From Diaphorobacter sp. HDW4A (GTDB taxonomy: Bacteria; Pseudomonadota; Gammaproteobacteria; Burkholderiales; Burkholderiaceae_C), in contig NZ_CP049910.1 in NCBI RefSeq assembly GCF_011305995.1, positions 2,976,001 to 3,040,000 of the forward strand: DNA of 64,000 nt, written 5' to 3'. Every line of letters starts with the position of its first letter. The stretch's first letter is position 1. Positions 47,146 to 64,000 of the stretch are shown in pieces. Position numbers and translations under genes: made by a program. The notes below the pieces were generated by a model. The model was given only the letters and a program-made list of their open reading frames with translations, made no database searches and was not told where the DNA came from.

Positions 47146-47829
47146 TCATTCCGCCTCTGGGCTGCGTCTTGGCGCAATCGTCACCACCTCCGTACAACGC
47201 CCTTGTAGTCGCTGACCCTCCACCGAGCACAGAACGCATGGACCGGTCTCCTCCCAAGACACCCGTGCCCCAAACCCGCTGGCCCAGGGCGCAGACAAGC
47301 TCGGGCTCACGACCAAGGCGGCCCTGACCTTGGGTTTCGCGGGGGAGGAATTTCCGTGTGGCCCTGAAGTCAAGCTCTGCAACTCCACGCCTACGACCCA
47401 TGCCCAAGATGCTGGGTCTTCCCCACAATGAAGCGGTCTGCGACGCAGCACCAACTTCAGCAGTGCACATCCGCTTCGCTCCATTACCGCAGACAGGCCC
47501 GCCAAGGAGTTCTTGTCTGTCCCGCTGAAGCGCCCGATCTCGCACTCTGGAAACAGCGCTTCCCATTCGGGAGCACCGTCTGAGCTCGTGGGGATGCAGG
47601 CGTGGTCTGGATCTTTTTGCATAGATCGCTGCGCCATGACTGCGGCGCATCTCGTCAAGCACCACCCCAGGCCATCGGGATCCGCTGCCTGGGCATCACC
47701 AGCATCCAGGAGCAACAGTTTCCAGCGTTTGCGCCCGGATGGCGAGGCGACCTGGTACTGCCACAACCCATCAAAGCGGATACCGCGCATGTACTGATGC
47801 ACGAGCCCCTGTCCTGCTGTTCTAATCAT
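47146..47829 (-). CDS. Unknown module protein, last operon gene (copy B)
   Basis: A 227-residue protein starting MIRTAGQGLVHQYMRGIRFD; the ATG overlaps the stop of the metal-binding protein gene (ATGATTAG). Conserved with copy A: YMRGIRFDGLWQYQV, GRKRWKLL, EWEALFPECEI, GCALLKLVL, WAWVVGVELQ and APWASGFGARVSW. The variable parts lie between these blocks. No known domain. The strong conservation of Trp-rich strands suggests a compact beta fold. Confidence 0.8.
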   Translation of the reverse strand: MIRTAGQGLVHQYMRGIRFDGLWQYQVASPSGRKRWKLLLLDAGDAQAADPDGLGWCLTRCAAVMAQRSMQKDPDHACIPTSSDGAPEWEALFPECEIGRFSGTDKNSLAGLSAVMERSGCALLKLVLRRRPLHCGEDPASWAWVVGVELQSLTSGPHGNSSPAKPKVRAALVVSPSLSAPWASGFGARVSWEETGPCVLCSVEGQRLQGRCTEVVTIAPRRSPEAE

Positions 47830-48982
47830 GGGATGGCTCCCGAACCAGCGGGTAGTTCTGGCGCTTGTGTCGAGCAGGCCTGTCACTGCGAACGCCATGG
47901 GCCTGGGAGTCACCGGGTGGATAGAACTCCTGCACGATCTCCACGGCCTCCCCTTCCAGCTCTTCAAACAAGCCCAAGGCATAGCCCTCTCTGGCAGCCT
48001 GCTCCAGCCCCCCTTGGTCATAGCCACTGCGCTTGGCCTGCTCGGCTGTCTGCGCCGCTTGGTTAATGGCGGCTTCCAAGGACTGTGGCTCGCGCACGCC
48101 TAGGTCCACATAGTAAATCGGGGTGCCGCGGGACTGCGCAGTGGATTTACCGCGCAGGCGGATCTCCAAGGGTAGATAGGCCAGAAGCCCTCCCGAGACG
48201 GCTTGCAGGTACTGCATGCGGGCCAGGAGCGTGCGCAAGGTGTTGATCCCTGTGGTGCGCAGCACAAAGGTGCTCAAGGCGTCCGCTGAATTGCCCGCAT
48301 GGTCAATCCGTACATGGAAACGGCCAAACGGCTTGCACCCGCCTTCCTGGGCCAATGGACACAGATCGGGGCCGGCACAGGGCAACTGTTTGATACCGGT
48401 CTCTGTGACCCGTTTACAGCTTTGGCCGTCTCCCACACACAAGGGCCGGGCGGTGGCCCGGTCAAACAAGGTGTAGTTGCCCCGCAGGTTCAGCGCCGGG
48501 TCGTTAAAGAGCAGGCGCACGGGGATGCGGCGCAGCTTGGGGCTGGTGGCGGCGCGGGTTACTAGTTTGCTGGGTGGGCGTTGCTCCAAGCCCGTACCCT
48601 GGTTCACCATAGATCCGCTGTTGCCCATTGCTCGCTGTGAGAGCTTGTCTCTCAGGCTGGGTTGGGAGGATTGGCTGAATTGCGGCAGTGCCTGTTCTTC
48701 AGGATGCTGCTGACGCGCTCCAGTGAAGTGATCAGCAAACTCCGGAGGGATCTCGTGCAACTCAGTGACCTCCACGCCAGTACTCACCTGCGCCCGCTCA
48801 AGCTCTTCTGCACGCAAGATGCCATCCAGCGGATGCAGCATCCAACCATTGCGGTTTTGCACCTGGGTGGTGATGGTGAATTCGTCGTCTTTCTCGGGCA
48901 AGCGCATGCCGTTGCGCTCTACGACGCGGCCAATTGATATCCGGCCCACCACGGGCGGGGTCATCATCAGTCCTTTGATCAT
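47822..48982 (-). CDS. Metal-binding / recombination-directionality-like protein (copy B)
   Basis: A 386-residue protein starting MIKGLMMTPPVVGRISIGRV. The Cys cluster is kept (RPLCVGDGQSCKRV, KQLPCAGPDLCPLAQEGGCK), as are STFVLRTTGINTLRTLLARM and LLAYLPLEIRLRGKS. The linker between about residues 85 and 155 is the most diverged part. Same open question as for copy A: RDF-like factor or DNA-binding partner of the YqaJ nuclease. Confidence 0.75.
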   Translation of the reverse strand: MIKGLMMTPPVVGRISIGRVVERNGMRLPEKDDEFTITTQVQNRNGWMLHPLDGILRAEELERAQVSTGVEVTELHEIPPEFADHFTGARQQHPEEQALPQFSQSSQPSLRDKLSQRAMGNSGSMVNQGTGLEQRPPSKLVTRAATSPKLRRIPVRLLFNDPALNLRGNYTLFDRATARPLCVGDGQSCKRVTETGIKQLPCAGPDLCPLAQEGGCKPFGRFHVRIDHAGNSADALSTFVLRTTGINTLRTLLARMQYLQAVSGGLLAYLPLEIRLRGKSTAQSRGTPIYYVDLGVREPQSLEAAINQAAQTAEQAKRSGYDQGGLEQAAREGYALGLFEELEGEAVEIVQEFYPPGDSQAHGVRSDRPARHKRQNYPLVREPSHD

Positions 48983-49006
48983 GGGTTTCTCCATTCATAA
49001 ATGCAA

Positions 49007-49040
49007 AGACCCCGTCTGCCTGGTGTGGCGGACGGGGTCT
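49007..49040 (-). terminator. Terminator-like hairpin between YqaJ and metal-binding protein genes (copy B)
   Basis: AGACCCCGTC / GACGGGGTCT, a 10-bp stem followed on the minus strand by TTGCATTTATG. Sequence differs wholly from the copy A hairpin at the same place, so structure rather than sequence is kept. Confidence 0.78.
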
Positions 49041-49096
49041 ATGCGTTGGGGGTGGCTGGTTAGTTGGTAAATTGCTTGCTTGGTTTTGCGTAGCGC

Positions 49097-50125
49097 TCAG
49101 TGCTCGGTATGGAGAAAAAAACGGCGCGAACCCGGTTTGGTGCCCAGGTAGGCTTGGGCTATCTCGGGGTGTTCTTTCTGCAACAAAGCAGCATGCAAGA
49201 CCTGGCTGTCCTTGCTGCGCTTCCAGCTCACTGCTCCAGCTGCAAACCGTGCAAAGCTGGCATTACCCATGCGCTGCTGGATCTGATGTTTGAGCAGGGC
49301 CTCCTTGGTTTCGCAGTCCTGGAGATGGCAACGGATTTGCTGGAGCTGGGTGAAGGCACTGGAGGCCGCTTCGTCTTCAGACAAATCGATCTCTTCCCCG
49401 GTGTCTTGGGCGTACAGGCACCGCAATGCGGTGGCAGCGCTCTCTGAGGCATCGGCTGGCGGCTCCTGCTCTGTCTTGACCCATTCCCAGAATTGCGCCT
49501 CCAAGGCAATCAACTGGGTGATCATGGTCTCGTCACGTTCAATGCGATGCACCTGCAATTCCTGGCCACCGATCAGCACGGCCACATCGGCCGCCTGCTT
49601 GCCCGTCACGGCTAGCTGGTGCATGACCTGCAGTTGGATGTACTCGGGAACGCCATCCCGCCAGAGCTTGGCGCCATTAATGCCTGCGGTTTTGCATTCG
49701 AGGATCTGGACATCGGGAGCCCCGACCACTTCCCGGTCGATATTGGCGAGCATCCAGGGGATGTGGGGATGGCCCAGCACCGCATTGACACGGCGCACGC
49801 GGTTGCCGGTGCGCTTGGTGTAGTGGGCCGCCACGATGGGCTCCAGCAGCGTGCCCCAGTACAGGGGGCTGGTTTCGTCATTGGGATCCACCGCAGGCAA
49901 GAGGTTTGCCTTGCCTGTTTTGTGCATCCACAACTCCAATTGGGACTGATAGGGATTGAGGCCTACGGCCGCTGCAGCATCCGAGCTGCCGATGCCTTGG
50001 CGACGAACATCCAGCCAGGTCTCACGCGGCATGTTCTTGGTGGATACCAATCGCAGCGCAGGACGGGTGTTGGATGATTTCACTGCAGTGACTTGCACTG
50101 CCGATGTTGAAACGGTAACGGGCAT
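49097..50125 (-). CDS. YqaJ-family (lambda-exonuclease-like) nuclease (copy B)
   Basis: A 342-residue protein starting MPVTVSTSAVQVTAVKSSNT. Nuclease domain as in copy A: GSSDAAAAVGLNPYQSQLEL, LLEPIVAAHYTKRTGNRVRR, PDVQILECKTAGINGAKLWR, all with the catalytic residues. The N-terminal 30 residues and the C-terminal helical part differ from copy A while the nuclease core is almost unchanged, showing purifying selection on activity. Confidence 0.9.
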   Translation of the reverse strand: MPVTVSTSAVQVTAVKSSNTRPALRLVSTKNMPRETWLDVRRQGIGSSDAAAAVGLNPYQSQLELWMHKTGKANLLPAVDPNDETSPLYWGTLLEPIVAAHYTKRTGNRVRRVNAVLGHPHIPWMLANIDREVVGAPDVQILECKTAGINGAKLWRDGVPEYIQLQVMHQLAVTGKQAADVAVLIGGQELQVHRIERDETMITQLIALEAQFWEWVKTEQEPPADASESAATALRCLYAQDTGEEIDLSEDEAASSAFTQLQQIRCHLQDCETKEALLKHQIQQRMGNASFARFAAGAVSWKRSKDSQVLHAALLQKEHPEIAQAYLGTKPGSRRFFLHTEH

Positions 50126-50161
50126 AGTGCCTCCTGAAGATTCCAGCCCCCCACAAAGCAC

Positions 50162-50190
50162 AAAGCCCTCACCGCAATGGCGAGGGCTTT
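50162..50190 (-). terminator. Terminator-like hairpin between DUF932 and YqaJ genes (copy B)
   Basis: AAAGCCCTC / GAGGGCTTT, a 9-bp stem with an 11-nt loop, equal in place and core sequence to the copy A hairpin at 28720-28746. Confidence 0.78.
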
Positions 50191-50283
50191 GGCTTGTAGG
50201 GAGATGCTTGGATTGATTGAGAATGAACGAGCGGTGCTCGCAGGTGGACTGATGGCATTCGAGCGGCTAGACGACCAATGGGG

Positions 50284-51273
50284 TTACGCGACCAGTTGCA
50301 ATGCGTGCTCCAAGGCGCGCTGCTTGAGCGCTGCCCCTTGGCCGAACCATGCACTGTCCAAACGGTTGTCCTGGCTACGGGCCTGTTTCTCGTGGTCGAC
50401 GAACTCGGTCACTGCGCTGAGCAAGCCCCAGGCGGTGTCCTTGGCGGCCTGCAATTCAGCACCGCGCCCATGGCCCTCAAACAGGGTTTGCACCTTCTTG
50501 AGAGCCCGTTCGTTGGCAAGGCCCGGTACGCCTGAGCCTCCGCCCTCCCCCATTTGGTCCGTCTGGCAGATCACCTTGAGGAAGTAGTTCATGGCCTCGT
50601 GCGTCTTGACTTTGCGTTCTGCCAGGGTCTTCATGCGGTACATGAAACTGTCCCATTGGCCTACGGCGATGCCCAACTGGCGTTTGACGGCCTGGGCATC
50701 GAAGCTGGTGGAGTGCGGGACCTTGATGGAGCCAGCACTGGCCCCTTGCAGGGCCATGGCCAGGGTGTTATTGCACACGACACGAACTGACGTCGGAATG
50801 GCCATGGTGGCAAGCGTGCCATCGCATGACGTTGCCAGCAGCAGGTAGCTGTGAACGACATCGTTGCCCTTCAAGCACGCTGATTTACCAGTACGGGCCA
50901 GTGCCCAAAATCGCCGGCCTGCTTTAAGCACCCCAGCGGTTTCCAGCTCGAAACCAGCAACCTCGGACAGATCCCGGTAGAACTCCAGCACTTCCTGCGG
51001 TTGCACGACTTTGTAGCGTTGGCTCACCACCGACAGTGCAGCGTTGGTGTCGCTGCGGTAGAGCACCTTCTGTTCAGGGAATTCCAAGGCTTCGCCATAC
51101 AGGGCATCTGCATCACCAGTGGTCATGTAACGCACTGGTGTTTCCTGGATTTTCCACTGCATGCCTGCAGCTTGCGCCCAGACATCGATGGATTGCTTTT
51201 TAGGCAATGCGTGGCCTAGTTGGTGCCAAGGGGTTTGGCCGGTGTAGGCCATTGTGTCGATCAGGTGGGACAT
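50284..51273 (-). CDS. DUF932 protein (copy B)
   Basis: A 329-residue DUF932 protein. MSHLIDTMAYTGQTPWHQLG, LEFYRDLSEVAGFELETAGV, RFWALARTGKSACLKGNDVV, RVVCNNTLAMALQG and AKDTAWGLLSAVTEFVDHEK are shared with copy A. The zipper gene is 18 bp upstream. Function unknown; always in the same gene pair in this window. Confidence 0.9.
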   Translation of the reverse strand: MSHLIDTMAYTGQTPWHQLGHALPKKQSIDVWAQAAGMQWKIQETPVRYMTTGDADALYGEALEFPEQKVLYRSDTNAALSVVSQRYKVVQPQEVLEFYRDLSEVAGFELETAGVLKAGRRFWALARTGKSACLKGNDVVHSYLLLATSCDGTLATMAIPTSVRVVCNNTLAMALQGASAGSIKVPHSTSFDAQAVKRQLGIAVGQWDSFMYRMKTLAERKVKTHEAMNYFLKVICQTDQMGEGGGSGVPGLANERALKKVQTLFEGHGRGAELQAAKDTAWGLLSAVTEFVDHEKQARSQDNRLDSAWFGQGAALKQRALEHALQLVA

Positions 51274-51744: not shown

Positions 51745-51991
51745 TTTTTTATTTCTAGGTCTGGCTAAGGCTGGTCTCCGGCATTCGCTCACTGTTCCAG
51801 CTTACTTTCCCGCACACCTGAAAACGGTTAGAGAGTGTCAGTTCGCAAAGCTGGCTGCAACCGGTCATGTCTACTCGATCTGAGTGAACGTGATGTAGTG
51901 CAGGTTGGATGTGGGCACCGGAATACGCGCCGATCACCGAGCGGAAGCACCTGCTTGGGGTATCCTCAGCCACACTAGGGAGGAGAACAAC

Positions 51992-53809
51992 GTGGCGGTA
52001 TTGATTCCTGCAATGGGAGCCTGCGCTGGTCGGATGACGGCAGGTGAGCGTCGTTTGGCCGAGCGGCTGGAGCAAAAACTCGATGACGACTACATGCTCT
52101 GGTACGACGTCCCCATCGGTCCCAAACAAACGCACCCTGATTTTGTCGTGATCCACCCACGCCGTGGCATCCTGATTCTTGAAACCAAGGACTGGCGGTT
52201 GGATACGGTTCAGGAGGCGACCAAACAAGCGTGGACACTCACGGTTGAAGGCAGGCCCAAAGTCGTTATTAATCCAGCCGCACAGGCCCGGCACTGCGCC
52301 ATCCAGGTCGTCAACGCGCTTGAGCGAGATTCGCAACTGATACAGAGCGAAGGGCCGCATCAAGGAAAGCTGTCATTTCCATGGGGTAGCGGTGTTGTAT
52401 TCACCAACATCACGCGCAAGCAATTCGAAGACTCCGAACTGAATCGCGCTATTGATGAACATCTCGTCATCTGCAAGGACGAGATGTTGGAATCCGTCGA
52501 TGCCGAAGCCTTTCAACAGCGGTTGTGGAACATGTTTCCTCACGCATTTGGCAAGGCCATCTCCGTGCCACAACTGGAGCGGGTGCGGTGGATCATGTTC
52601 CCGCAGGTACGCGTTCCGGTGCAAGGCAGTCTGCTACCTGATGACGCGGACGATCTGCCGGACATCATGAGGGTCATGGATCTGCAGCAAGAGCAACTCG
52701 CGCGTAGCTTGGGAGATGGACATCGTGTTATCCACGGGGTTGCAGGCTCCGGCAAGACCATGATTTTAGGCTATCGCGCCGAGCATCTTGCCAAGTCATC
52801 TTCGGCCAAGCCCATCCTCGTGCTTTGCTACAACGAACCGTTGGCTGTAAAGATGAATGCTTGGTTCACAGCCAAGGGGCTTGCCGACCGCGTACATGCT
52901 CGCAACTTCCACAAGTGGTGCCGCCAGCAATTGGTGGCCTATGGCCAAACACTGCCCGCTCAGGGCGCAGGCATGTTCGATCAGATGGTGGAGTTCGTGA
53001 TCCGCGGAGTAGATCGACAACAAATTCCATCCGGGCAGTATCAAGCGGTCTTGGTGGATGAAGGACACGATTTTCAACCCGAATGGCTCAAGCTCGTCAC
53101 CCAGATGGTTGACCCCGAGACCAACAGTTTGCTGATCCTGTACGACAGCGCACAGAACATCTACGGCAAAAGCAAGGCCCGTGGGTTCAGTTTCAGGAGC
53201 GTGGGTATCCAAGCCTCAGGTCGCACCACCATTCTCAAGATCAACTACCGCAATACCAAGCAGATCCTGCAGATCGCCAACCGTATTGCAGCAGAGTTCT
53301 TGCAGCCCGATGCGCAAGACGATGATGGCGTCCCACTGGTGCAGCCAATCAGTTGCGGTCGCGATGGACAGGAGCCACTGATCGTGCGCCTGCCCACGTA
53401 CAAAGACGAGCCAGCCAAGATTGCAGAGCTTCTTGCCGCTGCGCATCAGGAGGGCCACGCATGGGGCGATATGGCCATACTCTGCCGAGATCACGAATCC
53501 ATGAATCAATGCGCAGTAGCGCTTGCCCACCGCAAACTGCCTCATCGTGTGCGGCATCGGTCAGGGGACTTCGATCCGTTGGCAGACACCATCAAAGTCA
53601 TGACTATGCACGCGAGCAAGGGACTGGAGTTTCCGGTGGTAGCGATTGCCGGAGTCGGTCAAATGCCTCGCGAAGGCGAAGAGCCAGCGGACGAGGCCAA
53701 GCTGTTCTATGTGGCGGCTACACGGGCGACCCAGAAGCTGGTGCTTACAGTCGCAGGTACAGGGGCCTTTGCGAGCGCTCTAGACGCAGCCCCGGAGGGG
53801 GAAGAGTGA
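51992..53809 (+). CDS. NERD nuclease-domain / UvrD-like helicase fusion
   Basis: A 605-residue protein. The NERD domain (about residues 15-135) has the nuclease-type pattern HPDFVVIHPRRGILILETKD (Asp50, Glu64, Lys66). The SF1 helicase follows: GVAGSGKTMILG (Walker A, about 249-256), VLVDEGHDFQPEWLKL (Walker B), LKINYRNTKQI, and near the end VMTMHASKGLEFPVVAIAG and KLFYVAATRATQKLVLT. The start is GTG at 51992 with GGGAGGAG upstream. Such fusions are common in defence islands and on mobile elements and may degrade foreign DNA. A defence role here is inferred from company. Confidence 0.88.
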   Translation: MAVLIPAMGACAGRMTAGERRLAERLEQKLDDDYMLWYDVPIGPKQTHPDFVVIHPRRGILILETKDWRLDTVQEATKQAWTLTVEGRPKVVINPAAQARHCAIQVVNALERDSQLIQSEGPHQGKLSFPWGSGVVFTNITRKQFEDSELNRAIDEHLVICKDEMLESVDAEAFQQRLWNMFPHAFGKAISVPQLERVRWIMFPQVRVPVQGSLLPDDADDLPDIMRVMDLQQEQLARSLGDGHRVIHGVAGSGKTMILGYRAEHLAKSSSAKPILVLCYNEPLAVKMNAWFTAKGLADRVHARNFHKWCRQQLVAYGQTLPAQGAGMFDQMVEFVIRGVDRQQIPSGQYQAVLVDEGHDFQPEWLKLVTQMVDPETNSLLILYDSAQNIYGKSKARGFSFRSVGIQASGRTTILKINYRNTKQILQIANRIAAEFLQPDAQDDDGVPLVQPISCGRDGQEPLIVRLPTYKDEPAKIAELLAAAHQEGHAWGDMAILCRDHESMNQCAVALAHRKLPHRVRHRSGDFDPLADTIKVMTMHASKGLEFPVVAIAGVGQMPREGEEPADEAKLFYVAATRATQKLVLTVAGTGAFASALDAAPEGEE

Positions 53810-53991: not shown

Positions 53992-55953
53992 CTAGTACGC
54001 CTGCTTCAACTCCTTCTTTTCCAAAGAATTGAGCAAATCAACATCCTGCCAATCAATCTGCCAGTGCCCATCACATACGACCGCTAGGAAGGCATTGATA
54101 TCCGCATTGTTTGGTGGCGCCTTCTGCAATACCGAATAGAGCGACTTTATCCACAGCGACTTATTTACATCTGGAACAAATGGGCAACTCAACAAATCCA
54201 GCAGCAGATAAGCCTTCTCGCTATTCATTAGGATATCTGACATATCCCCTAACCTCGACGCTACGGAACGCAGGATCTTCTTCCTGATCGCCTTGTACTG
54301 GTCATCATCTCGCACATAGAAAAGACACGAGACAATCGTGAAATAAGAAAGTCTTCGATTCTTAATGAACAGCTCATCCAATACCCGAGAAGGCAGCAGA
54401 TGATGGTCTCCAAGCTCCCGAATTGCCAAAGCAATGTTCAGATATTCGAGGTTCACAAACCCGTCTACACCTTCCGCATGTGGCTTTCCACATTGCTCAA
54501 GAAGTAGTCTAGATGCCAGTGTGTATAGCTGATGTGAAATAGTTCCGGCGTGAACGGGAAGATATTTTTTAGAAAATCTAAATACAAGAATCAGTGAAGT
54601 ACTGAATTTATAGGAAGCCCCAACCGATGGGGCAACGCTATACAAGAAGAACAGCACATCCACCAGAACCTCGATGACGGTCAGGTAGTTATCCTGAACC
54701 GCAACTTCGCACGTCTCCAGATCTCCGTTCACCAGTTTCTTGATTCGCTCAACAACAACCGACATCAAAAATGATGCCACTTCGTCGTAGCTTGAAGAAT
54801 TAGCAGAACAGAGAGCCTTTATGGAGTCGATATAGCTCTTCGTGAGCTTCCACTTGGAAAAAACCCGCTTAGGGGTCAGCAACCCTACCGTCGACTCATC
54901 CAGAAATTTCGACAGAAACTCATTCGTCTTAAGGCCCGCTTCAAATATCAACCTAGACTTGGTTGTCAAGAATGGCCGGTGAATAGTCGACGACTTTGCT
55001 GTGTTTGCATGAAGATTGAATGCAACCAACGTATCCGCATAGATCTCATAGATGCGCTGCGCAACTGCCTCGTTGATTGCAAATATAAAAACATCATCCA
55101 CGTATCGACGAAAAACATAATCAACGCCAAATTCTAGGTCAGGCAGTTTCGCAATCGCTCGACGATCTATCTCTTGAAATATTATCTCCGCAAAGACCCG
55201 GCTAGCTTCGGGACCAATTGGAATACCATTTGTCTCGTTATGATTTCCGTGCCGAATGGTCTGATCGAAGTCTTGCGCAAATGTGGACGAAACTGAGACA
55301 TTGCCCTTCGTGAATTCTTTATCCTTAACTGCCCACGAAAGGCTGTGGGTATAAATACTATCAAAGCATTTTGACACATCAAGGGTTGTCAGTACACAGA
55401 ACTGCTTCTCTAACGAAAAGTAGTCTCGCGAATTGAAGAATTTATATAAACGGTCGTAGCCGAAATACGAAAAGAACGAAGGTGTGTGCTTGACATATCG
55501 GTCAAGACTTGCCAATGTTACGGCGTCTTTTTTGTACTGGTTGATGTTTTCCCACGAGTTTTTGCTATAGAAGCTTCCTGCCACCTTGCGCGGCGAACGA
55601 ATCGACGCAGGGCTTTGCGCACAATAGTGCAGGATCAACTGCTCGTATTTCTGATAGAAGCACTTCAGACGCCACTGCGAGAGCGGATGTAGAAGAGCCA
55701 AGCGCCTGAACTCTTTGGAGTTCTTTCTAACCTTGTACAGATATGGGTTTGTAGAATTAATCACCTTGGGGTGCCCCTCTCCCAGCACAAGAGCATCAAT
55801 GATGGTTTTCTGAATCCCACCTGCAGTGCCGATTGATGCAACATGGTTGTACAACCCATCATTTGAGAAAATGATAGGCGTTTCAAAGGGCAGTGTTTCA
55901 GTAATGAGAACGCGATTGTAGTCTCCGCGTTTGATTCTGTTTTTCTTTTTCAT
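53992..55953 (-). CDS. drt3b: Antiviral reverse transcriptase, Drt3b-like (UG8)
   Basis: A 653-residue protein starting MKKKNRIKRGDYNRVLITET, preceded by GAGGTTGAG. The polymerase part shows TTLDVSKCFDSIYTHSLSW (catalytic Asp192), TNGIPIGPEASRVFAEIIFQ and RRYVDDVFIFAIN (YVDD, 284-287). A long C-terminal alpha-helical region (about 340-653) without known domain follows, as in other UG-group reverse transcriptases. It lies 7 bp after Drt3a. In DRT3 systems this subunit works with Drt3a and a noncoding RNA to make repetitive DNA during phage defence. The pair of two adjacent reverse transcriptases is characteristic. Confidence 0.85.
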   Translation of the reverse strand: MKKKNRIKRGDYNRVLITETLPFETPIIFSNDGLYNHVASIGTAGGIQKTIIDALVLGEGHPKVINSTNPYLYKVRKNSKEFRRLALLHPLSQWRLKCFYQKYEQLILHYCAQSPASIRSPRKVAGSFYSKNSWENINQYKKDAVTLASLDRYVKHTPSFFSYFGYDRLYKFFNSRDYFSLEKQFCVLTTLDVSKCFDSIYTHSLSWAVKDKEFTKGNVSVSSTFAQDFDQTIRHGNHNETNGIPIGPEASRVFAEIIFQEIDRRAIAKLPDLEFGVDYVFRRYVDDVFIFAINEAVAQRIYEIYADTLVAFNLHANTAKSSTIHRPFLTTKSRLIFEAGLKTNEFLSKFLDESTVGLLTPKRVFSKWKLTKSYIDSIKALCSANSSSYDEVASFLMSVVVERIKKLVNGDLETCEVAVQDNYLTVIEVLVDVLFFLYSVAPSVGASYKFSTSLILVFRFSKKYLPVHAGTISHQLYTLASRLLLEQCGKPHAEGVDGFVNLEYLNIALAIRELGDHHLLPSRVLDELFIKNRRLSYFTIVSCLFYVRDDDQYKAIRKKILRSVASRLGDMSDILMNSEKAYLLLDLLSCPFVPDVNKSLWIKSLYSVLQKAPPNNADINAFLAVVCDGHWQIDWQDVDLLNSLEKKELKQAY

Positions 55954-55960
55954 CTCAACC

Positions 55961-57229
55961 TCAGTTCTTCCAGCACGCTTGGATTTGCTTAAGCCTCGAC
56001 CCAGAGAAATAAACAAAACTGGCTTTGGCATGCCCCTTCATAAAACTATTGGAAAGTAATTGCCTTTTTTGCGCCCCTGTTAGTTTTGGAGATGACAACG
56101 AGGCGATGCGCCCATTCTTAGCAAGGATCGCATTTCTTAAAAACTCATCAAGAGACGCAATCCCTTCGGCATTACTTGAGGCTAGAGGGTAACTATGAAA
56201 TATACCGGCAATCTTCTTGCCTCCAGCCTTTGCGTTGTAGACGCTAAAGTTCTTTGTGAGGAACTTAATCCTATCCCTTAACAAAAGCCAATCACCGCTT
56301 TTGGCAAAGTCAAAGAAAGATCTGGATATCCTCGTTTTGAACTTGGCTATCTTCTTTTCTGCAATGTCCACCACCACTGTGCGATGGTGATCGCCAAGCT
56401 GCTTATTCTTTTCCCTTACTGGTTCACCAATCCGAAACGAATAACCAAGATAGTCAAACTTAAAAAGATGCACAGTTGCGTCGGCCGGTTTTGTCGGATT
56501 GACTCGGTCGCCAGCTTCTTCAATCTGTCTTTTCGTTGGATTTAAACGAAGTCCAGATGGAAGCATGTTTTCAATCTGTCGAACAAATATTGCCGAGTCT
56601 TCCCTCGCTGAGGTAACGATGATGATGTCGTCTACATATCTAGAGAAGAAGAACACTTCCGAATGTCCGCCCACTTTATGATCGAAATCACGCATTAAAT
56701 ACTCAGACAAAGCCGCACTTAATGCAAGGCCGCGAGGAATCCCAGACCCGCCGAGAGCTGCGTGGCACCCAAGCAGGTCATGCAGCAATCTCTTGCTTAG
56801 CGGGCTAAGCTCCGCGAGCTCGCCGACTTTCGCTATTACGTTGGAGACCTTGAAAGACTCGTAGAAGCTTTTCACGTCCAGACGGTATACGCGAAATGGC
56901 ACCCCCTCTTTCAGAAGCAGGTGTAAATTCGACACGATCTGCGCCCGCCCGCGTGAAGTGGCTTTTGATGTTTTCTGAATGTTTAAGCAGAGTTTTCGAG
57001 CAACAAGTTCATCCCACAGGTTGGGAAACATGAAAACCTGCCGTCCATGCAATGGAAAGCTCACCAGCGGATTTGCAGTTTTCACAAACCCAGAGGCTGC
57101 AGATGCCATCGCTTTGTTGAGCATACTCTCGCGGAATTCATCCAGCTCCGCAGCAGCTTTTATCCCGACAAAATCTAGTTTCTGAAAAACTCGCGCAAGC
57201 GTTTTTTTATTAAAAGATTGGTCGTGCAC
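55961..57229 (-). CDS. drt3a: Antiviral reverse transcriptase, Drt3a-like (UG3)
   Basis: A 422-residue protein. The start is GTG at 57229 (VHDQSFNKKTLARVFQKLDF) with AGGGGAG 5 bp upstream; the reading frame stays open 71 codons further, but those residues look like translated noncoding DNA. Polymerase motifs: FRVYRLDVKSFYESFKVSNV (Asp118), GGSGIPRGLALSAALSEYLM and FFSRYVDDIIIVTS (YVDD, 198-201), then KFDYLGYSFRI (thumb-side motif). Bases 57230-57845 upstream hold no gene. Part of a two-gene operon with Drt3b. Confidence 0.85.
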   Translation of the reverse strand: MHDQSFNKKTLARVFQKLDFVGIKAAAELDEFRESMLNKAMASAASGFVKTANPLVSFPLHGRQVFMFPNLWDELVARKLCLNIQKTSKATSRGRAQIVSNLHLLLKEGVPFRVYRLDVKSFYESFKVSNVIAKVGELAELSPLSKRLLHDLLGCHAALGGSGIPRGLALSAALSEYLMRDFDHKVGGHSEVFFFSRYVDDIIIVTSAREDSAIFVRQIENMLPSGLRLNPTKRQIEEAGDRVNPTKPADATVHLFKFDYLGYSFRIGEPVREKNKQLGDHHRTVVVDIAEKKIAKFKTRISRSFFDFAKSGDWLLLRDRIKFLTKNFSVYNAKAGGKKIAGIFHSYPLASSNAEGIASLDEFLRNAILAKNGRIASLSSPKLTGAQKRQLLSNSFMKGHAKASFVYFSGSRLKQIQACWKN

Positions 57230-57845
57230 GCAACTCCCCTTTCTTCGTATGCGGCTAAATGTAACAAAATTCGCAATACAGCTCCAGGGGGCGTGCCGCT
57301 GACTTGAGAAGTTGAATTGCCGTGTAAGCATGCGCGGCGAATGCCGTTTGTCCCCCGAGCATTGCAACAATAGCGACTGCCTATCTACTGCGAGACCGAT
57401 GTCACCGACGGATCGAGACTTCCAATTCAGGTGGGAGGGCAACTGTCACTGGGAACGCCGACCTAGAACTGAGAATGCTATGGCTGCAGAACCTCGTGGA
57501 GCGGGCAATCGAGCTAGCGCTCGGTGTCGGAACCGAATGACCGCCCCACATGGGGCGGCGTGAGTAGGGCTGACGCAGATGGGGGACAGCAACCGCTGCA
57601 GAGCTGAAGTTGATGCTCGGGGACCTGCTTCAGGCTGATCTGCGTCGTTCGCGCCCCGGCGTCTAAGCGACAGCAATCACCAGAAGCTGTCGTCCGGTAG
57701 GTAGCCGTGAACGGCAAAAGCGGACGCTCGCCAAATACACAATGTGACCTATATGGACCTTCAACTCTGTAGCGAAGTGAGTACAGAGGCCACGGCCGTG
57801 CCAGCGGGTTGACTAATTGCTACAACTGTATCGTATGCTATATGT
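57230..57845. other. Gene-free divergent region between DRT3 and the Argonaute operon
   Basis: About 615 bp without a credible gene. It contains a perfect palindrome CCGCCCCACATGGGGCGG (57541-57558), the left copy of a 50-bp repeat (57589-57638) and, close to the plus-strand gene, TTGACT (57809-57814) and TATGCT (57834-57839) with a 19-bp spacer, ending 6 bp before the ATG. Promoters of both operons should lie here. Confidence 0.55.
57589..57638. repeat. 50-bp direct repeat, left copy, flanking the Argonaute operon
   Basis: Matches 61304-61353 at 43 of 50 positions in the same orientation. Begins GCAACCGCTGCAGAGC and ends CCTGCTTCAGGCTG. The two copies bracket exactly the nuclease-TIR-APAZ and Argonaute genes. 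Confidence 0.85.
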
Positions 57846-59666
57846 ATGTCCGCTGACCGTATCACCTATTGCTTAGAGCGTGTCTCAAGCTACCGCGACT
57901 TTGAACGGCTCTGTTCAGGTCTCCTTGCTGGTACCGACTATCCCGGGATTGACCCATTGGGGGGGACCGGTGACGGCGGGCGTGACGCAATCATTCGGTC
58001 CGATTCGAACGGGCGAAAAATCGTTTTTGCGTATACAGTCCGTGGCGACTGGAAGACCAAGCTTAAAAGCGATTGTTCTCGAGTCCGTGAACAGGCTCAC
58101 AATCCGGATTCGTTCGTCTTCGTATGTACAGAGGCACTAAACGCTGCGGAGAAGGACGGCGCCCATGAACTCGTCCAAAGGGATTTCGGCTGGAATCTAG
58201 ACCTCTTCGACCTAGAAAGATTAAGAGTCCTATTGGTCGGACCTCAACGTCATCTCCTGGCCCAGCATCCCAGCATCTTCACACCTCCATTTTTTCCGCA
58301 AGCAGGTGGCGAATCACTTGCCGAGAGTCGAGATACCCTGGTTATTGACCACGTTGATTCCGACCACGCGCTTGCAACGTGGCTTTCGCGCCGGCTCACG
58401 CTTGCGGGCTTTAGAGTCTGGTGCCGAGGTACTGCACCCCTTGCGGGCGAGAACCAAGACGATAGCGTTCGCAAGCTCATTGAGCTAAGAGCCTCGCAAT
58501 ACATCCCCGTCTTGTCGCAGGCCAGCATGGCTGACGAATTGTTGCTCGAGCGATGCGCTTTGGCGGCGGGAAAAGAAACACTTGTGCTTCTCTGCAAAGC
58601 AGCCGACATTGAGACGTCAAAGTTGCCCTCTCGACTACGCACTTCCACCCCTGCAGACTTCTCCCGCTCCTGGAACACAGGTCTTGAGCAAATCGTGGCG
58701 AGGCTCGGTGGTCTTGGAATACAGCCAGACATCATGCACGACCAAGGCAGAGCAATCGCGCTGAACGACTACATGCCTACGCGGGTTACCGTCGCCAAGG
58801 AGGAGCCAGTTTTCGCAAACATTTTCGCGCTGAGTTTGCCTGAGACGATGCTAATTTACGACCTCCACTCGGCGCTATCCACGGCAAAACTCGATGAGCT
58901 GAGAACGCGTTGGGCGTTTGTGGAATTGAATGCCTACCGACTGGTCGCCTTCACTCCCCCTCCAGAAAATGCCATTCCTTCCGTCAAGACAATACGTACC
59001 CCAGAGTTTCTGTGGACCGACAATCCAGAGCGCGATGGCAAAAGGACGGAGGACGTCGCGAAGGAACTCGTTCGCCGGAGCCTCACCGTGGTGTGCGTGC
59101 AAAAGGGTCTGGCCTGGTGCTCCGACCGGAATCTCTATTACTTTCCTGAACGTGAAGACGGCGTATGGACGCAGCGTATCCGACACGTTGACGGACGAGA
59201 CACCCGGGTCAACCTGACTGGCAAGCGGACCAAGAGCTGGGGGGAGCGGGCATCACCATTTCTCTATCAACTTTCTCCAAAATTTCAGCCACAGCTAGAC
59301 GTTGATGGAAGTTGGAACGTTGTTGTCAACGTCTATGTCCGCCCAACGGACCTAAATGGAAAAGTCTACGAGCTCAAAGAGCTGGGACGCCGTCGCAAAA
59401 TCGTGACAAAAAGTTGGTGGAATAAAGACTGGCTCCCTAGACTACTTGGCGTGGTTCAAGCACTGGAAGCAGAACCTGGGCTCATTCGTTATGGTGAAGG
59501 ACGCCGTGCCGTCACGATGAGCACCGCCCCGCTCAAATGGATGTGTCCAGTCGGGCTCGATGTCCACGCCCTCGCAGGAATGGTCGATATGAGCGAGGAG
59601 CTCGCCGAAAACAGGACCCGCGAAGATGAAGATGACGGGTCGGGCGATAGTGATGGCACACCCTAG
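57846..59666 (+). CDS. Nuclease-TIR-APAZ protein, partner of short Argonaute
   Basis: A 606-residue protein with three parts. Residues about 10-145: PD-(D/E)XK-type (Mrr/restriction-like) domain with Glu20 (YRDFERLCSGLL), GGTGDGGRDAII (Asp47) and FAYTVRGDWKTKLKSD. The usual Gln-x-Lys is replaced by AYT, with Lys residues in the following helix. Residues about 163-288: TIR domain (DTLVIDHVDSDHALATWLSR, GFRVWCRG, YIPVLSQASMADELLLERC, with Glu235 a possible NADase residue). Residues about 300-580: APAZ domain (FVELNAYRLVAF, FLYQLSPKFQPQLDVDGSWN, VYVRPTDLNGK), which binds the Argonaute. The acidic tail EDEDDGSGDSDG is disordered. The gene ends 14 bp before the Argonaute gene. Confidence 0.85.
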   Translation: MSADRITYCLERVSSYRDFERLCSGLLAGTDYPGIDPLGGTGDGGRDAIIRSDSNGRKIVFAYTVRGDWKTKLKSDCSRVREQAHNPDSFVFVCTEALNAAEKDGAHELVQRDFGWNLDLFDLERLRVLLVGPQRHLLAQHPSIFTPPFFPQAGGESLAESRDTLVIDHVDSDHALATWLSRRLTLAGFRVWCRGTAPLAGENQDDSVRKLIELRASQYIPVLSQASMADELLLERCALAAGKETLVLLCKAADIETSKLPSRLRTSTPADFSRSWNTGLEQIVARLGGLGIQPDIMHDQGRAIALNDYMPTRVTVAKEEPVFANIFALSLPETMLIYDLHSALSTAKLDELRTRWAFVELNAYRLVAFTPPPENAIPSVKTIRTPEFLWTDNPERDGKRTEDVAKELVRRSLTVVCVQKGLAWCSDRNLYYFPEREDGVWTQRIRHVDGRDTRVNLTGKRTKSWGERASPFLYQLSPKFQPQLDVDGSWNVVVNVYVRPTDLNGKVYELKELGRRRKIVTKSWWNKDWLPRLLGVVQALEAEPGLIRYGEGRRAVTMSTAPLKWMCPVGLDVHALAGMVDMSEELAENRTREDEDDGSGDSDGTP

Positions 59667-59680
59667 GCTGGAGAAGCTTA

Positions 59681-61261
59681 ATGAGCAACACATTTCATTT
59701 TCTTGGCGAACCACTTCTTGAATTCGGGCATGGTCAAACCGCCGAAGACCCACACGATGGACTTGCCCTCTTCGGACCGGCCGAGGCGAAACAGCAGCTC
59801 CCAGATAACATTGTTCTTGGAACCGCGAGTGGCATAGAGGCTTGGAAAAATTGGTGCGCCGCGTTGAACGCGCCTGCCTCCTGTATCGACCCTGCCCGGC
59901 ATAGGGCTTGGCCTCCGTTTCCAGGATTTGACGTGGCGTTCGGCACCAGATGGCCATTGCCCGTTCGGAGCTATTCCATCAACGCAGAGAAGCTCTCAGA
60001 AGCGTCACGTAAAGCCGATAAACACGAGCGCGCATTTGCGGTCACCGGCCTATACATGGAGCAGGCGGAAAAACTAGGAAAGCTCGATTCACGTCCCGCA
60101 CTGGCCATCTGCGTGGTTCCCGACGAAGTGTTTGAGAACTGTCGCCCGAACTCAATCATTCCGCTTAGTAAGCGTAGCGATGCTGGACGAAGCCGAATTG
60201 AGCGCTCCTTCTTGGAGCAGGCAATCGTTGACCGGGATACCGGGCAGCAGGGAATGTTCGACGACTTTGAGGACGCGGCGGTGACCGCGGTGCGCGAGTC
60301 CTTAGAAACGTTCGAAGAATCTCGTAGCTATTCGCCAGACTTCCGCCGGCAGCTCAAGGGTCGATTGATGGGACTAGACCTGCCAGTCCAAATCATCAAG
60401 GAGTCAACGCTTCACATTACGTCAAAGGTGCGTCTCGGCGAAAAAGGGGAGAACCCGCTTTCCGACCGGCTGTGGAATTTCGGCACTGCCATCTACTACA
60501 AGTGCGGCGCGAAGCCATGGAAAACGCCTTGGGCTCGAGAAGGTGTCTGCTACGTTGGCCTTGCATATAAGCTCGCTGAGAACAAGCGAACCGCATGCTG
60601 CGCAGCACAGATGTTCTTGGACAGCGGTGATGGCGTTGTTTTCGTCGGTGAGTTCGGTGCTTGGTACTCAGCCAAAACGGGTGAATTTCATCTTCCGCCA
60701 GAAAAGGCTGAAGCGCTTCTGCGCGGCACCATAGAGACCTACCAGGAGCAGGACGGTCGACCACTGAAGGAGATTTTCCTGCATACCCACTCAGGTGTAA
60801 GTCCAGAGGAATACAAGGGATTTTTGAAGGCTGTTCCAGAAGGCGTGAAGCTCATCTCGATTCGTGTCCGTCAAGATCGTGGCGGTCAGCGCTTGTACCG
60901 CTACGACGACCATCCAGATGTAGGGAAACGAGGCCAGTATCCAGTCCAGCGTGGCGTTTTCTGGCAGCGGACAGACCGCCACGGTCTTCTTTACACCAAT
61001 GGCTTTAAAGCTCGCATCGCAAGCTACGACGGCTTCGAGATTCCTGTACCTCTCTCAATAACCATTCAATTTGGAGAAGGTGACATTGTTCAAGTGGCCA
61101 AAGACATCCTGGGATTGACCAAGTTGAACTACAACTCGTGCCAGCTTGGGGAAGGTCGGCCTATCACTATCAAGTACTCCGACCGAGTTGGCGAAATTAT
61201 TCTTGCAAATCCTGGCCTTCCCCAGACCAGTTGGAAGCACAATTTCAAGTACTACGCTTAA
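59681..61261 (+). CDS. ago: Short prokaryotic Argonaute, catalytically inactive
   Basis: A 526-residue protein without N and PAZ domains. After a leader of about 130 residues comes the MID domain (ALAICVVPDEVFENC, DLPVQIIKESTLHI) and then PIWI (LWNFGTAIYYKCGAKPWKTP, REGVCYVGLAYKLAENK, EIFLHTHSGVSPEEYKGF, to KHNFKYYA). The first catalytic Asp is lacking (Ala295 in YVGLAYKL) and the third position has His, so it should not cut its target. In family systems guide-target recognition switches on the partner protein. GGAG lies 8 bp before the ATG. Longer than typical short Argonautes (about 450-500) because of its leader. Confidence 0.9.
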   Translation: MSNTFHFLGEPLLEFGHGQTAEDPHDGLALFGPAEAKQQLPDNIVLGTASGIEAWKNWCAALNAPASCIDPARHRAWPPFPGFDVAFGTRWPLPVRSYSINAEKLSEASRKADKHERAFAVTGLYMEQAEKLGKLDSRPALAICVVPDEVFENCRPNSIIPLSKRSDAGRSRIERSFLEQAIVDRDTGQQGMFDDFEDAAVTAVRESLETFEESRSYSPDFRRQLKGRLMGLDLPVQIIKESTLHITSKVRLGEKGENPLSDRLWNFGTAIYYKCGAKPWKTPWAREGVCYVGLAYKLAENKRTACCAAQMFLDSGDGVVFVGEFGAWYSAKTGEFHLPPEKAEALLRGTIETYQEQDGRPLKEIFLHTHSGVSPEEYKGFLKAVPEGVKLISIRVRQDRGGQRLYRYDDHPDVGKRGQYPVQRGVFWQRTDRHGLLYTNGFKARIASYDGFEIPVPLSITIQFGEGDIVQVAKDILGLTKLNYNSCQLGEGRPITIKYSDRVGEIILANPGLPQTSWKHNFKYYA

Positions 61262-61303
61262 CGGCCATCGAGCAGCCGCTGGTGAGGTCGTAGGTGAAGG
61301 GCC

Positions 61304-61353
61304 GCAACCGCTGCAGAGCCGAAATTGGTGCTTTGGGGCCTGCTTCAGGCTGG
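61304..61353. repeat. 50-bp direct repeat, right copy, flanking the Argonaute operon
   Basis: Counterpart of 57589-57638 (86 percent identical), 43 bp after the Argonaute stop codon. It is followed by GGTTGCCGACAGTCACTGGA-type intergenic sequence. The rest of 61262-61600 holds no gene. Confidence 0.85.
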
Positions 61354-61600
61354 TTGCCGACAGTCACTGGACAACCGCTGAACGACTGCCGTGAGAAAGA
61401 CCAGAGAGTCAAAAGCATTGCCATTTTTCGGCCTCAACACTCATTATTACCAATGAGCGCCCTCCCTCGTGCCTCAAAGCTACAGTCGCTTTTACTCGAA
61501 AGTGCCCACTCAAACGTAAGAAAGGATTGTCAAGTCATAGATCCTTTGGCGATTCTCTTCTAGAGATGGGTTAATACTGCCGGGCGCACCACCCTCCAAT

Positions 61601-62053
61601 TCAACTAATGCGTTCAGATTCGCTTCTTGTCACTGATTCAGGGTTCGGTACTAATGGAAGCCATCGGGTATGCGCTTCCCACGAAATAGCACGAGTCGAC
61701 TCAGCCAAAAGGCGGGTCTTCTCTACCTCATCAACACTGAATTCTCCAAGGTTAAACTGATATCTGCAAAGTGCGTCTTCAATTTTTCGCTGACTATCTC
61801 TATAAATTGCCCACAAATGCTGCGGCTTCCTGAGCTGCAGCCAAGCAGTACTTGCCGCGACGACCAAGGAAAGGCATGATGGAATTATTTTCCCTACAAT
61901 TAAACCATCCCCCAACATCACAAACATGGGACTAAGCAAGCTAAATGTGACAATGATGGAAAAGAAGAAAAGCGATTCTAATTTATTGTGATCTGCCTTG
62001 GTCCGAAAATGATTTATAGCAGCATTCGCAAGTTCGACTGCATCAGTGGTCAT
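61601..62053 (-). CDS. SLATT-type two-helix membrane effector
   Basis: A 150-residue protein. N-terminal helix (DAVELANAAINHFRTKADHN), two transmembrane helices (SLFFFSIIVTFSLLSPMFVM and IPSCLSLVVAASTAWLQLR), then a long cytoplasmic helix (IYRDSQRKIEDALCRYQFNL) typical of SLATT domains. SLATT proteins are predicted pore-forming effectors in nucleotide-signalling conflict systems. Its ATG overlaps the stop of the phosphorylase gene (ATGA), so translation was coupled to it. The IS inserted upstream probably cuts off its promoter and coupling. Confidence 0.8.
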   Translation of the reverse strand: MTTDAVELANAAINHFRTKADHNKLESLFFFSIIVTFSLLSPMFVMLGDGLIVGKIIPSCLSLVVAASTAWLQLRKPQHLWAIYRDSQRKIEDALCRYQFNLGEFSVDEVEKTRLLAESTRAISWEAHTRWLPLVPNPESVTRSESERIS

Positions 62054-62129: not shown

Positions 62130-63162
62130 GGCTTTGTTGCACAAATCCGGGCCGCAGCGGTAGTAGGCTCGGATGATGAGTGAGACGAACTGGGGACGGC
62201 GCAAGTACCGCACCACAAACTGGAAGGCGTACAACGCAGCACTGAAGGCTAGAGGCGACTTGAGCATCTGGCTGGATAAAGACATGCAGTGGCTGGCTCC
62301 TGCGAGCGGCAAGCGTGGGCGCAACCAGACGTTCTCAGATGCGTCCATCCAGTTTTGCCTGACCATCAAATGCTTGTTTGGCTTGCCCCTGCGTCAGACA
62401 TTGGGGCTGGTGCAGTCGCTGCTCAAAATGGCTGGCCTACCTTGGGCAGCCCCCGACTACAGCACGGTGTGTCGCAGACAAAAAGGTATAAATGTTCAGG
62501 TGCACTACCGCCCAAGTGGCAACGGCTTGCACATGCTTGCCGACTCCACAGGGATCAAGTTCTTGGGTGAAGGCGAGTGGAAAACAAAGAAGCACGGCGC
62601 CGAGCGGCGCCGTCAGTGGCGCAAGGTGCACCTTGGCATAGATGCAGAAAATATGCAGATACGGGCCATGGTGGTGACCACCAATGAAGTTGGTGATTCA
62701 CCAGTAGCTGCAGGGCTACTGGGCCAAATACCAAGCCATGAAATAGTTGCCAGCTTTACAGGCGATGGCGCGTACGACACAAAAGACGTGCATGAAGCCT
62801 GCCACCACCGCAAAGCCATCCCCGTCATTCCTCCTCGCAAAGGCGCAAGGTTGCGCAAAGGTCTGGCATTCGCGCATCGCAACGAAGCGGTCAAAGCGTG
62901 CAAGAAGTTGGGCCGTACTATTTGGAAGCGCTGGAGCGGCTACCACCGTCGGTCCTTGGTGGAGACGAAGATGAACTGCTTGAAGCGCCTAGGCGAGAAG
63001 GTGATGGCTAGGACGTTTGAGCGACAGGTGGCCGAGCTCAATGTCCGGGCATCCATCCTCAATCGCTTCACCGAGCTGGGCACGCCCCAGACGGTGGCCG
63101 TGGCATAACTACGTCTGGGGTTTGGGGAGACTTAGCCTCAGACCGATTTATGCAACAAAGCC
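62130..63162 (+). mobile_element. IS903-group (IS5 family) insertion sequence, complete
   Basis: 1033 bp. Terminal inverted repeats GGCTTTGTTGCA (62130-62141) and TGCAACAAAGCC (63151-63162). Flanked by the 9-bp direct repeat CGTGCAGAG (62121-62129 and 63163-63171), the duplication length of the IS903 group. The exact duplication shows a recent, single insertion. Confidence 0.95.
62173..63108 (+). CDS. IS903-group transposase
   Basis: A 311-residue DDE transposase. MMSETNWGRRKYRTTNWKAY is the usual start; TIKCLFGLPLRQTLGLVQSL, HMLADSTGIKFLGEGEW (first Asp), FTGDGAYDTKDVHE (second Asp) and SLVETKMNCLKRLGEKVMAR (Glu) form the catalytic core. Full length and intact, so the element may still be mobile. 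Confidence 0.95.
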   Translation: MMSETNWGRRKYRTTNWKAYNAALKARGDLSIWLDKDMQWLAPASGKRGRNQTFSDASIQFCLTIKCLFGLPLRQTLGLVQSLLKMAGLPWAAPDYSTVCRRQKGINVQVHYRPSGNGLHMLADSTGIKFLGEGEWKTKKHGAERRRQWRKVHLGIDAENMQIRAMVVTTNEVGDSPVAAGLLGQIPSHEIVASFTGDGAYDTKDVHEACHHRKAIPVIPPRKGARLRKGLAFAHRNEAVKACKKLGRTIWKRWSGYHRRSLVETKMNCLKRLGEKVMARTFERQVAELNVRASILNRFTELGTPQTVAVA

Positions 63163-64000
63163 CGTGCAGAGCATCATTCTTTTCCGTCCCACACATATCT
63201 ACAACGGTTTTGGCGCATATACAGGGCGGCATGCTGGTTGATAATTCTGCCGCCCGTTGTATAGCATAGACTTCCATGTCAAGCGCTGTCACCTTGCGAT
63301 GCACTTGTTCCACCTGCTGCAAGTAAGTTTCACTAGCTATCACTGCCGAGCCGCTTGTGAATATACATACCTCCGGCAAGCTTTCGACTTTCGGCCGCTC
63401 GCCAGTAAACCCAGCTTCAAGGCTGCTGATGAGCTGATCCGAAGCGGCAAGTGCCTTTAGGCGAACGAGGGTGGCATGATCTGTGGAGACTTGATAAGGC
63501 TCATGGAGAAATCCATCAGTTGACCACTTTCCAGATTGATACTCGTAAGACATGCTAGATATGAGCAGCTGCCCTAAGCTTGCGCGCTTCTGAAACCCGC
63601 CACAAATACCGCTCATCCCGATCAAAGTTGGCCGGAATCGTTCGATGCAAATGGCAGCAGTGATGGCTGCATTGACTAATCCCATCTGAGGCAGCAACAC
63701 TGCCGTTCCTCGGCGTCCACCAATCGTGAAATCTAAACAATCGATACCTGCTCTTATAGCCGGATTGCAATCAAGCAGCGTTGCATATGGATTTCGCTCC
63801 TCTCGCAGAGCGCAAAATAAAACAAAATCAAACCGCGTGTTCTTACGCAACTGGACAAGCAAATGGTCTAAAGTAGACTGCCAACTGCGCTTTTCTGCAT
63901 AGTTCGCCAAAATACAACCACTTGCCTCATAAATTCCTCTCAACTCGGGAAATTCGTCGGGATACGAACTAATCGCGAGCATAAGGGCGTTAACTTTGCC

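Follow-up and report, generated by a model that had tools for sequence, protein, structure and literature searches.

On balance, and with modest confidence, our analysis indicates that a two-gene operon of Diaphorobacter sp. HDW4A encodes a short Argonaute that would sense invader DNA by means of guide RNA and act through a nuclease effector, the TIR domain of its partner protein having probably lost the hydrolysis of nicotinamide adenine dinucleotide (NAD) and serving assembly instead. The operon lies in the 64-kb stretch of contig NZ_CP049910.1 analyzed here (the window); coordinates are positions within it, and residue numbers are those of the HDW4A proteins. Since the TIR domain aligns an arginine at the position where every nuclease-free relative examined retains the glutamate with which known relatives destroy NAD, the system likely acts through the nuclease. 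An earlier note on this DNA had raised the prospect of two working effectors in one protein. This is probably wrong, in view of that arginine, the loss of aromatic residues from the same domain and the nuclease being the most conserved domain. The accompanying idea that one effector may be dead stands, but the choice of the nuclease is doubtful: judged from the sequences, this suspicion should probably be inverted, with TIR as the likelier dead effector.

The short-Argonaute operon itself is real, as had been observed earlier, and partner and Argonaute were found together at 22 of 25 loci. The triple nuclease-TIR-APAZ layout proposed for the partner was borne out by a full-length match to PADLOC model PDLC02416 (Aga_REase-TIR-PNTD1-PNTD2; partner residues 6 to 597, model positions 1 to 559 of 572; Table 1). 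Pfam matched only Mrr_cat and TIR_2, with no DUF4365 at E <= 1, and no NCBIfam model matched the partner. The TIR and APAZ domains, for which the earlier note had proposed a check, were both found. At 59640-59690, the HDW4A partner falls a few residues short of the length seen in most relatives, and a 14-base gap separates it from the Argonaute start, whereas the two genes overlap by 4 bases in 20 of 22 relatives.

Relatives were compared in two branches of nuclease-fused proteins. Branch B, which includes HDW4A, comprises 144 sequences (120 proteins, P0001-P0120, 23 genome loci and HDW4A), and branch A, which is rhizobial, comprises 121 rows (P0121-P0240 and L002); the proteins are the best 120 of 439 matches for branch B and the best 120 of 836 for branch A, more distant members lying outside. 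Our column counts take in 402 sequences (133 nuclease-free, 125 from A and 144 from B). Since these sequences are interdependent, what has really been sampled is two events. Left out of the counts were a frameshifted Aminobacter copy (L117), a partial Novosphingobium copy (L123), L136 and L137, which a simple text filter did not pick as TIR-APAZ, and L003, a branch A member with Asp at the column of the catalytic glutamate.

The TIR domain was read against that of SPARTA, whose numbering was verified against sequence (W46, E77, Y105, R114 and N116 all fit) and in which E77A serves as the catalytic control (PMC10474274). At the E77 column, Glu is present in 120/120 SPARTA-type proteins and in all 13 other nuclease-free TIR-APAZ proteins (L086, L087, L091, L092, L093, L116, L118, L121, L122, L129, L130, L131 and L134, of which L092 and L093 are near copies and L091 and L131 are identical at all columns shown). 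Branch A has Asp in 121/121 rows, four further nuclease-fused proteins counted with that branch have Asp (L119 and L120) or Leu (L090 and L128), and branch B has Arg in 144/144 in the multiple sequence alignment, so that Glu is absent at this column from every nuclease-fused protein counted. Phe45 and Trp46 of SPARTA are expected to stack on nicotinamide (PMC10474274), and alanine at these positions impairs NADase activity, with W46A nearly abolishing it (PMC11156904). An aromatic residue occupies columns 45/46 in 133/133 nuclease-free proteins, in 113/121 rows for branch A and in a single branch B sequence of 144 (L044); because branch A mostly keeps it, the aromatic loss is particular to branch B. 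At column 8, nuclease-free proteins have Ser or Thr, with Cys in a single case, branch A always has one of Ile, Leu and Val (121/121), and branch B always has Asp (144/144). The changes at the E77 column and at columns 45/46 suggest that the HDW4A TIR has likely lost NAD hydrolysis.

Not all TIR columns carry equal weight. Trp46, Arg114 and Asn116 count for less than Glu77 and the missing pair of aromatics, since they vary in some nuclease-free relatives; Arg114 and Asn116, being variable there too, are uninformative on NADase loss. Two observations on this domain count against our interpretation. With the aromatic kept in most of branch A, only the loss of Glu is common to both branches, and branch B does not conserve Arg114 and Asn116, through which the SPARTA TIR makes contact, so that a SPARTA-like TIR assembly is unsupported there. 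As Arg114 is the central TIR contact in SPARTA, assembly through the branch B TIR, if any, must use other contacts.

Whether Arg236 or its neighbor occupies the catalytic column is a matter of a single residue, and on it hangs an alternative that we regard as unlikely: both effectors would be live, Glu235 entering the TIR pocket by a one-residue shift and target recognition triggering both NAD loss and nucleic-acid cleavage. Glu235, directly before Arg236, is kept in 143 of the 144 branch B sequences, and many polar residues of the TIR are invariant. Helix-only scores do not separate the two registers when the E77 column is excluded (3.5 for Arg236 and 3.3 for Glu235, a tie) and favor Glu235 when it is included (8.3 versus 3.5). 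Moreover, the nuclease-free sister L086 also has Glu-Arg, and L091 provides a case in this family of a loop one residue shorter ahead of a Glu. A profile built from 22 Glu-bearing nuclease-free TIRs of varied loop lengths nevertheless places Arg at the E77 column in 139 of the 144 branch B sequences, with Glu in three and a gap in two; once L086 is added, the figures are Arg 141, Glu 2 and gap 1. Arg236 is likewise set at Glu77 by phmmer, hmmsearch, hhalign and MAFFT, and the longer ungapped block favors it (14.5 versus -4.8). Finally, L048, the most diverged member of branch B, has lost Glu235 and kept the Arg, and the nicotinamide-stacking aromatics are gone in 143/144. Reciprocal loss, with branch A losing the TIR and branch B the nuclease, was considered and rejected, as the aligners put Arg236, not Glu235, at Glu77.

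The claim that the nuclease lacks Gln-x-Lys holds for all of branch B (Table 1), and the textbook D...(D/E/Q)xK site is altered accordingly: Asp47 is kept, motif III reads Ala62-x-Thr64, and Lys72 stands in the following helix. The nuclease fold was supported by profile and by predicted structure, with Pfam Mrr_cat found in 16/16 branch B members scanned (E <= 0.1; the HDW4A match sits at this cut-off) and with an alpha-beta order in the model that fits the Mrr/PD-(D/E)XK fold. The model was built from 87 sequences and superseded one built from 16 (pLDDT, the predicted local distance difference test, 60.7). By sequence, the nuclease piece had no PDB match; the fold comparison with PDB covered partner residues 161 to 576, that is, the part without the nuclease. 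A lysine may plausibly migrate in this way: in DUF1626, the motif III Lys is often Thr and has likely moved beyond core strand 3, into the helix that follows it, and DUF506 and DUF790 show comparable moves (PMC1913061).

Selection on the nuclease also bears on the possibility, which we consider more doubtful still, that the nuclease is dead and that the TIR does the work of the effector, through NADase or other nucleotide chemistry in a rebuilt pocket. Motif III is without both Gln and Lys in 144/144, and the invariant TIR residues Asp168, His169, Glu202, Asp205 and Arg236 resemble a rebuilt site. Yet the nuclease, with its invariant Asp and Lys, is the best conserved domain of branch B (mean pairwise identity of 0.773, versus 0.666 for TIR and 0.655 for APAZ, over 3,000 random pairs). 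The ratio of nonsynonymous to synonymous substitution rates (dN/dS) between HDW4A and its three nearest loci is 0.034, 0.043 and 0.045 for the nuclease, 0.084, 0.113 and 0.071 for TIR, and 0.051, 0.046 and 0.053 for APAZ; between L036 and L040 it is 0.088, 0.126 and 0.116 for the three domains in the same order. Five such comparisons were computable, dS not being so for HDW4A and L034. The altered pattern is furthermore common to two haloarchaeal proteins that match the nuclease piece weakly (E = 8e-4 and 7e-5) and have His-Tyr-Ser/Thr, Lys-Leu and then Asp, with the Trp also present in one of the two.

Three results speak less well for an active nuclease. Model confidence is low at the motif II stretch that holds Asp43 and Asp47 (pLDDT 46 at residues 41 to 50), and one of the five computable comparisons, L034 with L035, reverses the order of dN/dS (nuclease 0.071, TIR 0.057, APAZ 0.028). 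In the DREN nuclease of SPARDA, K62A merely impairs activity and Q60A abolishes it (PMC12205087); with the motif III Gln also replaced by Ala, activity of the branch B nuclease becomes less certain. We therefore regard this nuclease, on its conserved residues, as likely, though not certainly, active.

Two side observations concern the nuclease piece. The haloarchaeal matches (L126:2956-4110 and L127:2848-3963) are plasmid proteins with this same altered Mrr-type motif and a C-terminal half that has no Pfam match. In a metagenome-assembled genome of Dechloromonas (L054:9983-10660), the first ~93 residues of the branch B nuclease give way to unrelated sequence in a 225-amino-acid frame, which could be either a domain swap or a truncation; no Argonaute was found at that locus.

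The Argonaute, as the earlier note had recognized, lacks the first catalytic Asp of PIWI. Alignment to the SPARTA Argonaute sets Ala295, Phe336, His370 and Asp501 at the catalytic positions; of 22 branch Argonautes, 21 have Ala at the first of these and one has Ser. Three guide-contact positions of SPARTA are kept as Lys226, Thr243 and Asn485, each in 22/22, while SPARTA His207 is replaced by Arg and SPARTA Arg72 by Trp, again in 22/22 each. With a degraded PIWI site and kept guide contacts, the Argonaute is predicted to bind guide and target without cutting.

Considering these data, we propose a model for the HDW4A system, which is predicted to serve in defense. First, the Argonaute would bind a guide RNA and recognize matching invader DNA, the types of guide and target presumably being those of SPARTA. 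By analogy with SPARTA and SPARDA, target recognition would then gather several partners, with the TIR acting as an assembly domain. The nuclease domains would pair or tetramerize and cut nucleic acid nonspecifically, that is, collaterally, with Lys72 as the migrated lysine, and the outcome would be cell death or dormancy. If the TIR is indeed a pseudoenzyme, guide-triggered nuclease activity, not NADase activity, is what assays of these systems should look for. They would also offer a natural case of an assembly-only TIR, like those of animal adaptors, that invites direct comparison with the enzymatic SPARTA relatives, and they could yield a programmable collateral nuclease of a new kind.

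Trees and profiles suggest that TIR gave way to nuclease on two occasions, each time with a different Mrr-type nuclease, and on this sequence evidence we favor two independent nuclease fusions. Despite the common layout, aligned branch A rows are 18 to 20% identical to the HDW4A partner, and a global profile comparison of the two branches gives a probability of 98% for the TIR-APAZ parts and of 1.6% for the nuclease parts (E = 0.012). The branch A nuclease reads D53...Q66-A-K68, with Asp in 115/115 rows that have a letter there and Gln and Lys each in 116/117; six of the 121 rows are gapped at the Asp, and for those six the nuclease is not demonstrated. In the Argonaute tree, A and B each form one group (100/100), A being placed, weakly, with nuclease-free rows (82/68). 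The TIR-APAZ tree with L086, a nuclease-free sister of branch B (100/100) that keeps Glu at the E77 column, rejects a single nuclease-fused clade (approximately unbiased test, p-AU = 0.00073).

As this rejection depends on L086, the case for two fusions rests on one imperfect sequence: L086 is a broken gene with an in-frame stop at a contig end. Further results pull in the same direction. Without L086, the TIR-APAZ tree does not reject a single nuclease-fused clade (p-AU = 0.189), nor does the Argonaute tree reject A and B together (p-AU = 0.078); a single PADLOC model takes in branches A and B alike, nuclease included, and the nuclease of each has some match to Pfam Mrr_cat. Nevertheless, our preferred reading is that twice a TIR-APAZ partner gained a nuclease, whereupon its NADase site decayed and the TIR was left as a likely assembly module. 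The fuller account is one that we put forward tentatively, as somewhat more apt to fail than to hold: a parallel change of weapon, in which two TIR-APAZ lineages took up different Mrr-type nucleases, each lost the Glu (to Asp or Leu in one and to Arg in the other), the TIR became a scaffold, and the HDW4A nuclease came to work with a relocated catalytic lysine.

Labeled hosts in the Argonaute tree are Pseudomonadota, which we take from their genus names to be mostly relatives of Burkholderiales. One branch copy is plasmid-borne (p2A1 of Thauera); no relatives were found in phage records, nor in viral contigs with the search patterns applied. In Rhizobium gallicum (L121:2027-3739), a TIR-APAZ protein is extended at its N terminus by 159 residues that match no nuclease of Pfam, and it keeps the TIR Glu. 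Elsewhere in the HDW4A genome (L089, C1:1904515-1904640) lies a remnant of the first 33 to 42 codons of the partner, 88% identical and with one stop, upstream of an open reading frame that by eye resembles an IS21-type transposase.

The surroundings of the operon are rich in defense genes, namely, a DRT3 reverse-transcriptase pair, a NERD-UvrD helicase, a SLATT protein and a PNP-like protein (Table 1), together with a DDE transposase. None of the HDW4A DRT3, NERD-helicase, SLATT and PNP proteins had an open reading frame match at 25 other loci of the branch (flanks of up to 10 kb, often shorter), where the sole matching neighbor was the transposase, in part, and a functional link to the adjoining DRT3 pair was rejected on this ground. 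It is quite improbable that neither domain cuts or hydrolyzes and that the partner works by regulation or by recruiting another neighbor of the defense island, for although both textbook active sites are altered and the DRT3 pair and other defense genes adjoin, the two-gene operon recurs without them at those loci. The noncoding RNA of DRT3 is modeled in a published study from sequence downstream of that operon, which in this window would be below 53992. An Rfam scan of the window gave no family at gathering scores, and promoter and terminator scans of 57400-61700 gave chance-level hits only.

Table 1. Features of the short-Argonaute operon and its neighbors in the HDW4A window
Feature	Position	Strand	Remarks
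Partner gene, nuclease-TIR-APAZ, 606 aa	57846..59666	+	Start ATG; PADLOC PDLC02416, E 1.2e-139
Mrr-type nuclease domain, residues 8-145 (limits approximate)	57867..58280	+	Pfam Mrr_cat; strand/helix order of the model
Glu20 codon, putative motif I acid	57903..57905	+	143/144 in branch B, one gap; putative role
Asp43-Gly-Gly-Arg-Asp47, putative motif II	57972..57986	+	Both Asp 144/144; putative role
Ala62-Tyr-Thr64 in place of motif III Gln-x-Lys	58029..58037	+	144/144; end of model strand 58-64
Lys72 codon, putative migrated catalytic lysine	58059..58061	+	144/144; helix 69-82; putative role
Asp76 codon, possible replacement carboxylate	58071..58073	+	144/144; in the helix of Lys72; putative role
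TIR domain, residues 163-292 (limits approximate)	58332..58721	+	
Asp205 codon at SPARTA Trp46 column	58458..58460	+	Asp 144/144 in branch B
Glu235-Arg236, Arg236 aligned to SPARTA catalytic Glu77	58548..58553	+	One-residue register caveat
APAZ domain, residues 320-575 (limits approximate)	58803..59570	+	
Short Argonaute gene (MID-PIWI), 526 aa	59681..61261	+	Degraded catalytic tetrad
Ala295 codon at first catalytic Asp position of PIWI	60563..60565	+	Ala 21/22, Ser 1/22 branch Argonautes
Run of Gp3-like, YqaJ recombinase and DUF932 genes	47822-51273	-	Phage-/plasmid-like recombination genes near the defense stretch
NERD-UvrD helicase, defense candidate	51905-53809	+	PADLOC C3a187, E 1.2e-173
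DRT3 reverse-transcriptase pair, divergent	53992-57442	-	Adjoins the operon; Drt3a E 5.2e-133, Drt3b E 1.1e-216
Small SLATT_1 membrane-effector-like protein	61601-62053	-	E 3.5e-7; no obvious sensor partner
PNP-superfamily protein	63068-64000	-	PADLOC PDC-M60C, E 7.3e-37; frame open to window end

A survey that we take to be that of Ryazansky et al. 2018 treats APAZ proteins by group. Filed as PMC6299218, it lists TIR-APAZ and DUF4365-APAZ groups, and the triple layout goes unmentioned in the parts of it drawn on. We found no study of how nuclease-TIR-APAZ proteins work in the open-access literature, most subscription papers lying outside that search. The layout is nonetheless not new, as the earlier note had stated, since a PADLOC model exists and Makarova et al. 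2009 described several TIR-APAZ proteins with an extra N-terminal PD-(D/E)XK domain, the catalytic residues being typically conserved (PMC2743648). With this group the HDW4A system shares the three-domain layout and the operon with an inactive short Argonaute, although it differs from the rhizobial branch in nuclease motif and in TIR substitution. The closest solved relatives of both proteins are those of SPARTA, which have in common with them the TIR-APAZ fold and the inactive MID-PIWI; the HDW4A partner differs in its extra N-terminal nuclease, the Arg at the TIR catalytic Glu column, the Asp at the Trp46 column and the lack of conserved Arg114 and Asn116. Families with a migrated lysine are alike by layout: DUF506, DUF790 and DUF1626 have moved the Lys (or Arg) from motif III to the next helix, Thr occupying the vacated position in DUF1626, but HDW4A has lost the acid or Gln of motif III as well. 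SPARDA, in turn, has a D...QxK-type nuclease at the N terminus of an APAZ protein and provides a model for activation by assembly, but its DREN is a DUF4365 domain, joined to APAZ by a flexible loop and without a TIR (PMC12205087).

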